Of a stretch of 64,000 bases of DNA, positions 22,975 to 26,622 are shown piece after piece (within the stretch, counting starts at the first letter, position 1; each line of letters begins with the position of its first letter). Source of the stretch: Cololabis saira (Eukaryota; Chordata; Actinopteri; Beloniformes; Belonidae); assembly GCF_033807715.1 (NCBI RefSeq), contig NC_084599.1, positions 12,897,125 to 12,961,124 of the forward strand. Reading direction: 5' to 3'. The notes under the pieces are model-generated. The model saw only the letters and a program-made list of their open reading frames with translations, did not search any database and was not told the DNA's origin. The position numbers and the translations under genes were made by a program.

Positions 22975-23399
22975 TGTGACGACCCACCCAACAGGGTGTT
23001 CTGTTCATGTGCAGGAGGAGGGGACCAGCCTGCATGGGTGTGCCTAGAGGAGGAGGCACACCTGACTCCAATCAGGCCCAATATTTAAGCAGGCTGGTCA
23101 GGGCCATTTGGCCTCTCTCCCCTGCTCAGTAAGCATGGTTTTCTTTTGGTTGTTTTGAGTTTGTTTGTCTTTAGTTTTCTGCACTTGCACATACACTACA
23201 CTTACACACATCCACACCTGCCATACACCACTGATCAAACTGATGACTCACACCTCACCTTACCTGTTTGATTGATTTAATTATAAATAAATACATTGTT
23301 TTGAACATTTATCCCTGTGTGTCGTCTCCCATTTTTGTCATGACGAAGTCAGTTCCCGGACGAGCCCCCATCTTGTCATGAACTGACTTCGTCATGACA
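22975..23399 (+). repeat. 5' LTR with foldback insertion
   Basis: Starts TGTGACGACCCACCC and ends CATGACA. It contains a TATA-like AATATTTAAG near 23080 and AATAAATA near 23285. By eye it matches the 3' LTR throughout, except that it lacks 6 bp near 22989 and has about 38 bp extra near its end, formed by an inverted copy of the LTR end plus primer site. Confidence 0.9.
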
Positions 23400-23414
23400 A
23401 GATGGGGGCTCGTC
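23359..23414. repeat. Perfect 23-bp inverted repeat at LTR/primer-site junction
   Basis: Left arm 23359-23381 (GACGAGCCCCCATC...) and right arm 23392-23414 (...GATGGGGGCTCGTC) are exact reverse complements around a 10-nt loop ACTGACTTCG. A second inverted pair, 23338-23356 with 23380-23398, overlaps it. The layout is that of an LTR end plus primer site copied back on itself. Confidence 0.95.
23403..23414 (+). promoter_or_regulatory. Primer-binding site, tRNA-Pro type
   Basis: TGGGGGCTCGTC lies 3 nt after the LTR end and matches the first 12 nt of the proline-tRNA primer site known from gammaretroviruses. Match stops after 12 nt here, but the inverted copy (complement of 23354-23370) extends it to 17 nt, TGGGGGCTCGTCCGGGA. 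Confidence 0.8.
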
Positions 23415-23921
23415 ACTTTAGTTAAGTTTACTGGTAGATTTGGGTTGTTACTTGCTTGTTTTTCTATCAATTGTTTGGTAAACTTAAGCTTTGTTTGTGT
23501 TCTGTGGAACAGACTGGTTTGGGAGACACACATAGGTTTTGTATGTATGGGAGGGGGGAGAGCATTAGGAACTCATTCTTTCACTGCAGGTTTATAAAGT
23601 TTATAAAGTGCTTTAGTCCTTGGGGCTCCAACTCCCAGTAGCTTTTAACAGTGGGTCTCCATATGGGACCTGCTGTCTTTTTTTTTTTGTCTGGTTTAGA
23701 TTGCATTCCACGAAAGCTGGAGTGTGGTGGTACCACTGAGAGGCCCTTGTTGGAGGGGGGGACTCGGGAGGGCCACTGAAGACTAGGGTTGAGCCAGTCA
23801 GTCAGGTTTTGGGTAGGCAGGTTACATAGGGGAGTTGGGCCCTGGGGTCTTTTGCTACTTGTTAGTTTAAACTGTTGCAGTGGGTTTTTTTTTTAAATTT
23901 TATTTAAAAAAAAAAAAAAAA

Positions 23922-26234
23922 ATGAGTTCTGTGGAGGACTTTCTGCAGGATCCATCTGTGGATAGACTGGACAGATGCACAAAAGACCAGCTGGTACAAA
24001 TAGCAGAGCACTACAAAATTGCTGTCCATTCAAAACTGTCAAAGGTTAGGGTGAAGATTTTTCTGATCGACAGTTTGGTGACAAAGGGTGTGTTGTCAGA
24101 GGAGGTGGTCCCAGAGGATGATGAGAACCCAAGTGCTGGTGGAACTTTTTCATTTTCTTCGAGCCAATTAACCTTTGAACAACAAAAGGAATTGCTTAAA
24201 ATTAAACTTGAACATGAGAAAGAAATGGAACATATAAAACAAAGGACTGAGTTAAAAAAATTGGAATTGGAGCATGATAAGTTCCAGTTGAGTGTTCATG
24301 AAGCAAAACAGTTTAATGTTGGTTCTAATCTGCAATTACTCCCCAAGTTTACAGAGAAAGATCCAGATTTGTTCTTTGCCCTGTTTGAGCGAGTGGCAGA
24401 CGCCAGAGGTTGGTCAGATGGTGAGCGCACCCTACTGCTCCAATGTGTCCTTACAGGTAAGGCCCAGGAGGCCTATGCTTCCTTATCAGTGATTGATAGT
24501 CAGAAATATGGGGTTGTTAAGGAGGCAGTGCTACGTGCGTATGAGTTGGTACCCGAAGCCTACAGACAACGTTTTAGGACTTGGAGGAAAGAGGAACATC
24601 AAACGTATGTGGAATTTGGGAGGGATATGTTGGTCCAGTTTAACCGATGGTGTGTAGCATCAGAGGTTAAAACCTTTAATGGGCTTTGTGATTTAATGAC
24701 TCTGGAACAATTCAAAAACTGTGTGCCCGTTGATATTGCCACTTATATAACTGAGAGGAAAGTGAAGACCCCCCAAGAAGCGGCCATCTTGGCTGACGAG
24801 TACTGTCTAACACACAAAAGTGTATTTGGTGACTACACGCTTCAAACTGGTGGGTCCATTCGTACAGGAAAGCAGGGGGATTCAGGGGTTCTAAATTCGG
24901 AGCATGGTTCCGGGAAACGGAGTGACCCTAATGTTTGTCATTTTTGCCATAAAACTGGACACTGGAAAAATTCTTGTTTTTCTCTTAAAGCTAAAGAGAC
25001 GACATTGAGTGGTGCACAAATCAAACCGTCCGCGTTGGCTGCACCTGTAGTCCCCTCACCTCAGCTAATTGTTAAAATGGAAGGTGTTCCTGACATGTTT
25101 TCTGCTGGGGGTGACCCTAAGGCTGGGTATTCAGCATTCGTTTCAGAGGGTTTTGTTTCACTGTCTGGTGGAAAGGCAATTAAGGTTAACATCTTGAGGG
25201 ATACGGGTGCGTTACATACTTATGTCCGTCGCAACATAGTTCCATTCTCCTCCACGTCAGACACGGGCGATTTCAGTTTGATGCGAGGTATGGGTATGCA
25301 GTTAATTCCGGTGCCCCTACATAGAATGAGCATTGTCTGTGGGTTGGTTAGTGGAGAGGTGGTGGTGGGAGTGCGGCCTGAGTTACCAGTGGAAGGGGTC
25401 GATGTAATACTTGGAAATGATTTGGCGGGGGATAAAGTGTGGGCTGAGGCTATAGCTCCAAATGTGGTTACCCAGGTCCCAGTCTCATCTTACCCAAGTA
25501 AACAAGAGGGAAAAACAGAGGTTTTGCCGGCATGCGCAGTAACCCATGCTAAGAAGAACAAAGTGAACGGTCTGGGTAAAGAAATCGCCCTCCTCATGCA
25601 GACCCTCAACACACTGAGCACCCCCGAGGAAAAGCTTGGAGGCCTTTGCACGATGTACGCCGAACTGTTGGAAGAGAACCGTAACACTCAGAAGCAGATG
25701 AAGGTGCTGCAGAACCAGCTGGTCCAGGAGAAAGACAACCTGAGGAACGAGCACAGCAAGGCCATCCTGGCCCGCAGCAAGCTGGAAAGCCTCTGCAGGG
25801 AGCTGCAAAGACACAACCGGACACTCAAGGAGGAAGGAATCCAAAGAACGCGGCTGGAGGAGGAGAAGAGGAAGGAGGTGACTTCTCATTTCCAGGTGAC
25901 GCTGAACGACATCCAGACTCAGATGGAGCAGCACGACGAGAGAAACGCCAGCCTTCGACAAGAGAACGCAGACCTGGCAGAAAAACTCAAGAAACTCTAC
26001 GAACAGTACAAACTGCGCGAGGAGCACATCGACAAAGTGGTGAAGCACAAAGACCTGCAGCAACAGCTGGTGGATGCAAAGCTGCATCAGGCACAGGAGC
26101 TGCTGAAGGAGTCGGAGGAGCGGCACGAGAGAGAGAAAGACTTTCTGCTAAAGGAAGCCGTAGAGTCTCAAATGATGTGTGAGCTGAAGTTACAGAGTAC
26201 CTGTTGGTCTCCTCTCTTAAGGGGGGAGGTGTGA
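23922..26234 (+). CDS. Gag-protease-taxilin fusion polyprotein (770 aa)
   Basis: Uninterrupted from ATG 23922, chosen over the in-frame ATG at 23880 because the latter adds only a poly-T/A-derived leader. Residues 1-60 form a helical SAP-like start ([18 protein letters not shown]). Residues 75-130 are a charged coiled coil. About 195-295 are a SCAN-like capsid domain ([26 protein letters not shown]). Residues 339-352 are a CCHC knuckle ([14 protein letters not shown]). Residues about 418-505 are a retropepsin with LRDTGA (Asp427) and VILGNDLAG. From residue 544 (25551) to about 756 the sequence becomes alpha-taxilin coiled coil ([49 protein letters not shown]). It ends in a short element-derived tail, [12 protein letters not shown]. 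No polymerase or integrase is present. The product is predicted to be Gag-like particles or protein bearing a taxilin coiled coil, which in the host binds syntaxins; that role here is inference. Confidence 0.93.
25551..26189 (+). other. TXLNA-derived: Captured host alpha-taxilin segment (TXLNA, intron-free)
   Basis: About 213 codons correspond to the central coiled coil of alpha-taxilin, from the GLGKEI block to AVESQxMCEL. The taxilin N-terminal tail and C-terminal third are absent. Vertebrate taxilin genes have several introns across this region, yet none is present, so capture was from spliced RNA. Relative to my recollection of human TXLNA, about four residues are absent between QMKVLQ and QLVQEKD, perhaps an alternative splice boundary. 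The local GC content is visibly higher than in the Gag part. Alpha is favoured over beta/gamma by [14 protein letters not shown] and TLNDIQxQMEQH. Confidence 0.9.
26219..26229 (+). promoter_or_regulatory. Polypurine tract
   Basis: AAGGGGGGAGG directly abuts the TG of the 3' LTR, the standard plus-strand primer position. It overlaps the last codons of the fusion frame (RGEV stop). Confidence 0.92.
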
Positions 26235-26622
26235 CGACCCACCCTGTCTTAACAGGGTGTTCTGTTCATGTGCAGGAGGAGGGGACCAGCCTGCATGGGT
26301 GTGCCTAGAGGAGGAGGCACACCTGACTCCAATCAGGCCCAATATTTAAGCAGGCTGGTCAGGGCCATTTGGCCTCTCTCCCCTGCTCAGTAAGCATGGT
26401 TTTCTTTTGGTTGTTTTGAGTTTGTTTGTCTTTAGTTTTCTGCACTTGCACATACACTACACTTACACACATCCACACCTGCCATACACCACTGATCAAA
26501 CTGATGACTCACACCTCACCTTACCTGTTTGATTGATTTAATTATAAATAAATACATTGTTTTGAACATTTATCCCTGTGTGTCGTCTCCCATTTTTGTC
26601 ATGACGAAGTCAGTTCATGACA
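26230..26622 (+). repeat. 3' LTR (393 bp)
   Basis: Starts TGTGACGACCCACCC and ends TTCATGACA, then CTGG duplication. It has a small hairpin, CACCCTGT-CTTA-ACAGGGTG, near its start that is disrupted by the 6-bp difference in the 5' LTR. Confidence 0.95.

Follow-up and report, generated by a model that had tools for sequence, protein, structure and literature searches.

Capture of a spliced alpha-taxilin mRNA by a probable Gmr1-like LTR retrotransposon family in Cololabis saira

Why would an LTR retrotransposon carry the coding sequence of a host coiled-coil protein in the place of its polymerase? The question is raised by an element at 22975–26622 of a 64,000-nucleotide stretch of Cololabis saira DNA, hereafter the window (GCF_033807715.1, NC_084599.1, positions 12,897,125–12,961,124, forward strand). 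The element is flanked by a target-site duplication (TSD), CTGG, and has a TG..CA LTR pair, a primer-binding site (PBS) and a polypurine tract (PPT). Its fused frame of 770 codons runs from Gag through a protease-like segment (PR) into about 213 codons of alpha-taxilin (Table 1). The original prediction, made from the letters alone, had described a complete LTR element with a single frame of this kind; the frame is open as described, with Pfam matches to SCAN and Taxilin and protease motifs seen by eye, and the ends, LTR pair, TSD, PBS and PPT are likewise present, but the element is not fully complete, as its 5′ LTR is 6 nt short and rearranged at the U5/PBS end.

Table 1 Features of the taxilin-bearing element, in window coordinates.
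Feature	Position	Strand	Remarks
Left TSD copy, CTGG	22971..22974		Identical to 26623–26626
5′ LTR	22975..23399	+	Lacks 6 nt (TGTCTT); private palindromic rearrangement at the U5 end, about 23356–23399
Primer-binding site, TGGGGGCTCGTC	23403..23414	+	Begins 3 nt past the 5′ LTR in 16/16 aligned copies
gag and protease portion of fused frame	23922..25550	+	Open frame; Pfam SCAN, E 1.6e-14
SCAN-type capsid domain of Gag	24552..24815	+	Residues 211–298; PF02023, E 1.6e-14
CCHC zinc knuckle	24936..24977	+	Pattern found by eye; Pfam zf-CCHC_5, E 0.00094, under the curated cut-off
Retropepsin-like motifs DTGA (25200–25211) and ILGND (25407–25421)	25200..25421	+	By eye
Captured alpha-taxilin mRNA segment	25551..26190	+	Intron-free, six parental exons; PF09728, E 2.1e-56
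Taxilin YAEL motif	25656..25667	+	In 17/17 copies and the parent gene
Native 3′ end of element with polypurine tract AAGGGGGGAGG (26219–26229)	26191..26229	+	
3′ LTR, TG..CA	26230..26622	+	393 nt
Right TSD copy, CTGG	26623..26626		Pairs with 22971–22974

The two LTRs of the window copy show no substitutions over 381 aligned positions, and the palindromic rearrangement is private to this copy, being absent from all 15 other copies that have a 5′ LTR. The PBS is one that we take to be of the tRNA-Pro type. Among PDB sequences, the top match of the SCAN-type capsid is zinc finger protein 42 (2fi2, E 5.3e-5). The DTGA and ILGND motifs are presumably those of a retropepsin; Pfam gave no match for this putative segment, and an AlphaFold single-sequence model of the protease region, with a mean pLDDT of 34, is uninformative. 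The fused frame ends at a stop codon formed by bases three to five of the 3′ LTR (26232–26234). For integrase, reverse transcriptase and RNase H, a Pfam search of the window frame at E 0.01 found no pol domain. No tRNA or Rfam match lies within the window, and we attribute an antisense frame at 25488–26147, which has no Pfam match, to the composition of taxilin.

Residues 10–211 of the host-like segment align to profile positions 1–199 of the 302 in Pfam Taxilin, and thus the captured taxilin has no large gap. GC3 within the fused frame is 0.42 in gag-PR, as opposed to 0.74 in taxilin. The multi-exon parent anticipated by the original prediction was located in the host genome as an alpha-taxilin gene with six exons across the captured stretch. 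Its five GT-AG introns are missing from the element, and the source was therefore a spliced mRNA; together with the relatives lacking taxilin, this shows that a Gypsy-type element captured spliced alpha-taxilin mRNA and lost pol. The parent gene and relatives of the element that lack taxilin agree on the junctions, at about 25551 and about 26189. A LINE-made retropseudogene is ruled out because the taxilin segment sits within LTR elements that have common junctions. Scans of viral contigs and of genome contigs returned no relatives of the taxilin segment, and the scan of viral contigs none of gag-PR; among PDB sequences, taxilin has a single weak coiled-coil match, FOSW (E 0.012).

The captured segment differs from the local parent, the only comparison available, by 2.2–3.2%, with a synonymous distance of 0.05–0.09, and six positions are fixed against the parent in all 17 copies identified. 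Such a distance would be compatible with capture in another species and later arrival of the element, which we regard as highly improbable: the local gene matches closely, pol-bearing relatives are present in the same genome and nothing demands transfer.

Among the 22 genome matches scored per search, five are relatives without taxilin. These are 96–97% identical to the chimera beside the junction, and over 650 nt of gag-PR they differ by 2.8–4.6% from 14 chimeras. In one (L049), integrase follows the protease; in another (L052), reverse transcriptase is followed by an RNase H that closes the frame. Pieces of these two loci thus give the order, integrase upstream of reverse transcriptase, which is that of Gmr1, the chimera itself being without these domains. 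The original prediction that taxilin has replaced polymerase and integrase agrees with these relatives, and their integrase, reverse transcriptase and RNase H at the same place exclude the taxilin stretch being a normal pol-encoded region of the family, a possibility it had raised against itself. The native 3′ end is identical at 38 of 39 positions to that of L052, the one relative with its 3′ LTR read; the first 59 nt of that LTR are unmatched. A SCAN-type capsid in Gag is also a Gmr1-like feature, and the SCAN domain is said, in the part of the source consulted, to derive from Gmr1-like Gag (PMC3424704). We provisionally place the family among Gmr1-like Ty3/Gypsy elements, an assignment made from the capsid type and the relatives' domain order.

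The chimera is a repeated insertion, a multi-copy family of which the original prediction was unaware. At least 17 copies were found, representing at least 15 independent insertions, both counts being lower bounds; TSDs of 4–5 nt flank 13 of the 15 independent loci, and the family has inserted at at least 13 sites. An assembly join, which the original prediction had also set against its own reading, is unlikely given these numbers, and the differing TSDs argue against spread of the taxilin copies by segmental duplication. LTR pairs differ by 0–1 substitution in 13 of 14 insertions (none in 8, one in 5). L020 and L021 are two copies of one duplicated insertion, with 5 and 4 LTR pair mismatches. 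All 17 copies have the same 5′ taxilin junction, and one capture event is therefore the simplest account of the whole family. Two types of 3′ junction occur among the copies. L022 and L023 exit taxilin early, without its last ~95 nt, and what follows is RNase H sequence and then the native 3′ end, with ~94% identity to L052; the short RNase H remnants have no Pfam match, and we identify them as such because the frame of L052 at this DNA matches RNase H. All 16 other copies match the native 3′ end with its PPT, either in full or starting at its fifth base. In 8 of the 15 insertions, the frame remains open across taxilin. The chimera is a young, well-resolved host-gene capture in a vertebrate germline.

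The sequences show a non-autonomous, Gypsy-type (Gmr1-like) family in which spliced taxilin stands in for integrase, reverse transcriptase and RNase H, in frame with Gag-protease; very probably it arose by template switching and is carried in trans. While reverse transcribing inside a particle, the polymerase would have left the element RNA at a purine-rich stretch past the protease for a taxilin mRNA packaged with it, and returned just upstream of the PPT. By eye, there is an A/G-rich patch on the 5′ side and a common TGAG on the 3′ side, with very short direct identity (about 1 nt and 4 nt, respectively). The chimeric RNA would retain LTRs, PBS, leader and PPT, so that Gmr1-like relatives could supply the reverse transcriptase and integrase that copy and insert it in trans. 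The suggestion that the fusion could be mobilised in this way has gained strong support from sequence comparison: 13 independent insertions are TSD-flanked, yet the window copy has no detectable pol domain and hence no reverse transcriptase or integrase of its own. The relatives without taxilin are likely helpers. Most likely the chimera contributes to mixed particles the Gag-PR-taxilin protein that it encodes; there the coiled coil would be tolerated and perhaps helpful.

Host-gene capture by LTR elements is already known. Acute transforming retroviruses carry gag-onc fusions, sacrifice pol and depend on helpers; the taxilin chimera resembles them in its in-frame joining of Gag to a host segment, loss of pol and probable helper dependence, but is a germline LTR retrotransposon, and its host part is a trafficking coiled coil. 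A taxilin capture was known neither to the original prediction nor to our literature search, which found none in print. In the portions of the sources available, maize Bs1 is likewise an LTR element that transduced host-gene segments into a chimeric gene (PMC5408686, PMC13317346), but it is a plant element with three host genes, whereas the taxilin chimera involves one gene and a vertebrate Gmr1-like element, with its parent gene and pol-bearing relatives located. The LTR-mediated retroposition described by Tan et al. (2016) in metazoans, zebrafish included, and compared here via excerpts of citing papers (PMC5408686, PMC8232201), shares the intron-free copy with LTRs and, probably, the in-particle switch to cellular mRNA; it shows microsimilarity at the switches, to which the short identities seen by eye here may correspond. 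The taxilin chimera differs from those cases, as excerpted, in having retained Gag-PR in frame and become a repeatedly inserted family. CrocERV31/nectin3 of crocodilian ERVs, as excerpted, also holds a host mRNA in an open frame at multiple insertions, but there env was replaced, whereas here integrase, reverse transcriptase and RNase H were, with the host part fused to Gag-PR (PMC4299795). A single genome here holds the parent gene, pol-bearing relatives and both junctions, together with at least 15 insertions and a Gag-host fusion whose frame is open, making chimera formation, carriage in trans and selection on a captured host domain testable.

The fusion's role could be that of a passenger, a coiled-coil module or a donor of the YAEL late-domain motif; the original prediction had proposed that it might disturb syntaxin/taxilin trafficking or serve to oligomerise the particle. 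Taxilin as neutral filler that keeps the Gag frame open, with Gag, LTRs and packaging signals sufficing for spread of an element shorter than its helper, has about an even chance of being the whole explanation. Constraint on taxilin is weakly purifying for changes among chimera copies (P 0.02) and undetectable for those common to two or more copies (5 nonsynonymous, 3 synonymous; P 0.33); frame-breaking lesions occur in L009/L010, L014, L019 and L023 despite LTR pairs 0–1 apart, and the shortened taxilin of L022/L023 and an in-frame loss of 93 nt in L024 also fit a passenger. Against it, none of 50 taxilin changes is an in-place stop, N/S relative to neutral expectation is 0.51, near the 0.45 of gag-PR, and three of four taxilin indels keep the frame.

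The same weak constraint and the frequently open Gag fusion are what a working module would leave, in which YAEL or the coiled coil aids assembly or trafficking of the Gag fusion. Excerpts of two reviews describe YAEL of alpha-taxilin as a late domain through which TSG101 is recruited when hepatitis B virus is released (PMC7563130, PMC10459925), and every copy retains it. Its conservation is weak as proof because the parent carries YAEL too and the time is short; moreover, no env gene was seen in the element pieces read and no budding is known for the element. We hold a working module to be doubtful, and the more specific proposal of an acquired ESCRT-recruiting module, in which Gag-PR-taxilin exploits YAEL and the coiled coil for particle assembly or export and lets the pol-less chimera outcompete its helper, to be decidedly unlikely. 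If the taxilin part does work, it would link a trafficking/ESCRT adaptor to Gag evolution. The coiled coil joined to Gag might instead interfere dominantly, sequestering taxilin/syntaxin partners or poisoning helper particles as a restriction factor against the Gmr1-like family, as the excess of chimeras (17) over taxilin-free relatives (5) among the 22 matches scored, with a chimera-derived query, might suggest. This is highly improbable, as the chimera itself continues amplifying and the five relatives, just 0.3–0.9% apart from each other, have therefore not been long silenced.

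The taxilin segment of the chimera, an LTR element family in which a Gag-protease (gag-PR) frame is fused to alpha-taxilin, was searched against the window's own genome (1.146 Gb, 730 contigs), the genes of which point to a vertebrate host. The 25 matches listed comprise 18 on 17 chimera loci, 5 on one gene and 2 weak matches, on contigs C16 and C2, that are probably paralogues. The one gene is the multi-exon TXLNA parent anticipated by the original prediction of a host-gene capture: it is matched in five separate, collinear pieces, six of its exons span the captured segment, and all five introns, each starting with GT and ending with AG, are missing from the captured copy. 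The parent locus also holds coding sequence ahead of these exons and further taxilin-like exons after them. We label the taxilin 'alpha' because its identity to the human paralogues is highest for alpha (82.0%; gamma 71.4%, beta 57.7%). Other taxilin-carrying copies number at least 16 besides the one in the window.

Both LTRs of the window copy begin with TG, the 3′ LTR ends in CA, and CTGG lies on each flank of the element. Over 381 aligned positions the LTRs have no substitutions; they differ by a 6-nt gap and at the U5 end, which is rearranged in the 5′ LTR. The U5/PBS end carries a palindromic rearrangement with a 23-nt perfect inverted repeat, the extra arm of which resembles U5 and the tRNA-primer side; it resembles the outcome of a double strand switch in the course of reverse transcription, and is absent from all 15 other chimera copies having a 5′ LTR. 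A single frame of 770 codons has its stop within the 3′ LTR. Pfam identifies SCAN (E 1.6e-14) and Taxilin (E 2.1e-56) in this frame and no other domains, with integrase (IN), reverse transcriptase (RT) and RNase H among those looked for. A CCHC knuckle scores weakly, and what we take to be the protease was identified solely from DTGA and ILGND motifs. Third-position GC rises from 0.42 in gag-PR to 0.74 in taxilin where the two meet.

Positions of features in the window, the chimera loci and the parent gene
Feature	Sequence	Position
Chimeric element	window	22975-26622
PBS-like TGGGGGCTCGTC	window	3 nt past 5′ LTR
U5/PBS palindrome	window	23356-23414
Fused frame	window	start 23922; stop 26232-26234
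Polypurine tract (PPT)	window	directly ahead of 3′ LTR
3′ LTR (393 nt)	window	26230-26622
Parent taxilin gene	C15	21807302-21810705
RNase H and native 3′ end past taxilin	L022	4555-4780
RNase H and native 3′ end past taxilin	L023	4555-4814
Partial gag tandem duplication	L011	1234-3999
DNA-transposon-like insert	L020	4617-6560
DNA-transposon-like insert	L021 (reverse complement)	4617-6493
253-codon open frame	window	14311-15069
Minisatellite	window	4824-5711

The 16 further copies were extracted and compared piecewise. Two pairs have common flanks and a common target-site duplication (TSD): L009 and L010, 6.4 kb apart on a 34-kb contig (C224), represent a tandem duplication or an assembly effect, and L020 and L021, both on C3, are a segmental duplication. 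With each pair counted once as duplicates, the 17 copies leave 15 independent insertions, both totals being lower bounds (at least 17 and at least 15). A TSD is present at 13 of the 15 (4 nt in 11, 5 nt in 2); L023 has no TSD, L013 lacks its 5′ part, and L012 and L015 are located in locally repeated DNA. Among the 14 insertions with both LTRs, the LTR pair has no mismatch in 8, one in 5 and, for the two copies of the L020/L021 insertion, 5 and 4 of 403. This insertion holds an insert of about 1.9 kb within taxilin, bounded by terminal inverted repeats GGCCCAATCCCAA. The fused frame of L011 stays open through its gag duplication, at 1149 codons.

The 5′ junction is identical in 17/17 copies, all of which are fixed against the parent at six taxilin positions, and the simplest reading is that they stem from one capture. 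The window copy and L009–L015 have a 9-nt in-frame deletion in common. In the taxilin tree, L022 is paired with L023 (0.93), and this pair groups with the parent (0.73). Their taxilin ends after about 546 nt, followed by an RNase H end and the native 3′ end (that of relatives without taxilin); the remaining chimeras keep taxilin for about 637 nt before they pass into the native 3′ end just upstream of the PPT. These two 3′ junction types would result from two 3′ switches that followed a single 5′ switch, or from a pol-bearing relative recombining with the chimera at a later time. Certain shared changes conflict with the tree (L014 and L019, for example, have a 2-nt deletion in common), a pattern expected under recombination or repeat slippage. 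At the 5′ junction, the native sequence reads ..GTGCTATGAGAAAAAAAGAGG (4/5 relatives), the parent ..CAGGAGAAGAAAAAAGTGAAAGG and the chimera ..ATGCTAAGAAGAAAAAAGTG (as in L016); the switch, which keeps the frame intact, lies in a patch that is A/G-rich in both templates, a short similarity seen by eye. At the 3′ junction, where a short similarity was also seen by eye, parent ..TGTGAGCTGATGAAG and native ..TATGAGTAAAAGTTACGG meet in chimera ..TGTGAGCTGAAGTTACAG.

Relatives were sought with the 271 nt directly upstream of the 5′ junction, and the 22 places scored are the 17 chimeras and five loci (L044, L045, L047, L049 and L050) without taxilin, as judged over 1.5 kb downstream. These five are 96–97% identical to the query; over 650 nt of gag-PR they differ by 2.8–4.6% from 14 chimeras and by 0.3–0.9% from each other, and they form a separate clade in the gag-PR tree (support 0.992). 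Several are damaged: L050 enters another LTR shortly past its protease, the frame of L044 is disrupted, and RNase H-like sequence already lies within 1.5 kb in L045. In L049, integrase lies past the protease (Integrase_H2C2, E 3.4e-20; rve, E 6.3e-15), and downstream at the C8 locus RT (E 1.4e-32) is followed by RNase H (E 1.5e-33), where the frame ends. Judged from sequence pieces of these two loci, IN followed by RT and RNase H is the Gmr1 order, given in PMC8220671 as IN upstream of RT. Tetraodontiform Gmr elements, according to PMC11117352, measure 6.06–6.47 kb, with LTRs of 337–518 bp and one Gag-Pol frame of 1506–1634 aa. From the 5′ switch point to a 39-nt tail, the C8 relative has 2,959 nt, where the taxilin of the window copy takes up 640 nt. 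The leader common to relatives and chimera is 92–95% identical over the parts compared, and L052, a piece of the C8-locus relative, shares the PPT region with the chimera and has an LTR that is 98.8% identical over 336 nt from the 60th base on.

The chimera arose by capture of a spliced taxilin mRNA with loss of pol, and it inserted repeatedly, with TSDs. The capture probably involved template switching to taxilin mRNA inside the particle, and Gmr1-like relatives probably supplied RT and IN. Host mRNA capture by LTR elements is established, according to PMC8232201, PMC5408686, PMC13317346 and PMC4299795, and the taxilin capture adds an unusually complete case; none of the paper titles listed in literature searches on taxilin and mobile elements or retrocopies deals with such a capture. 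The reviews PMC7563130 and PMC10459925 describe a YXXL late-domain-like motif of alpha-taxilin, YAEL, that recruits TSG101 in hepatitis B virus release; YAEL is present in the captured taxilin of 17/17 copies and in the parent.

The frame is open from the gag ATG through taxilin in 8 of the 15 insertions, 7 of which reach the LTR stop and one (L022) the RNase H-derived end. L018 has an open frame without the gag ATG, L014 and L019 have a frameshift close to the taxilin end, the frame stops after 30 codons in L009/L010 and after 302 in L023, L020/L021 is broken by its insert, and L013 is truncated. Aligned to the parent, the copies have no in-place stops in taxilin, and omega is 0.14–0.35, a figure that includes the parent's own branch. 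Taxilin changes in 15 copies (the duplicates L010 and L021 being excluded) are 30 nonsynonymous, 20 synonymous and 0 stop, with 74.6% nonsynonymous expected (P 0.017), or 29, 19 and 0 with the L020 row cut at the insert (P 0.022); gag-PR changes in 13 copies (L010, L011, L013 and L021 excluded) are 55, 44 and 2 (P 0.0001). These tests assume independent changes. Changes found in at least two copies reveal no significant constraint in taxilin (5 nonsynonymous, 3 synonymous; P 0.33) or gag-PR (22 and 8; P 0.57), which speaks against strong selection. Indels across the two alignments are in frame in 5 of 7 cases, the L011 duplication and L020/L021 insert being left out of the count.

Elsewhere in the window, one open frame weakly matches Tesmin/TSO1 CXC (E 0.026, not reaching the cut-off) and is perhaps another mobile element, and a minisatellite consists of about 30 copies of a 30-nt unit, with several frames open.
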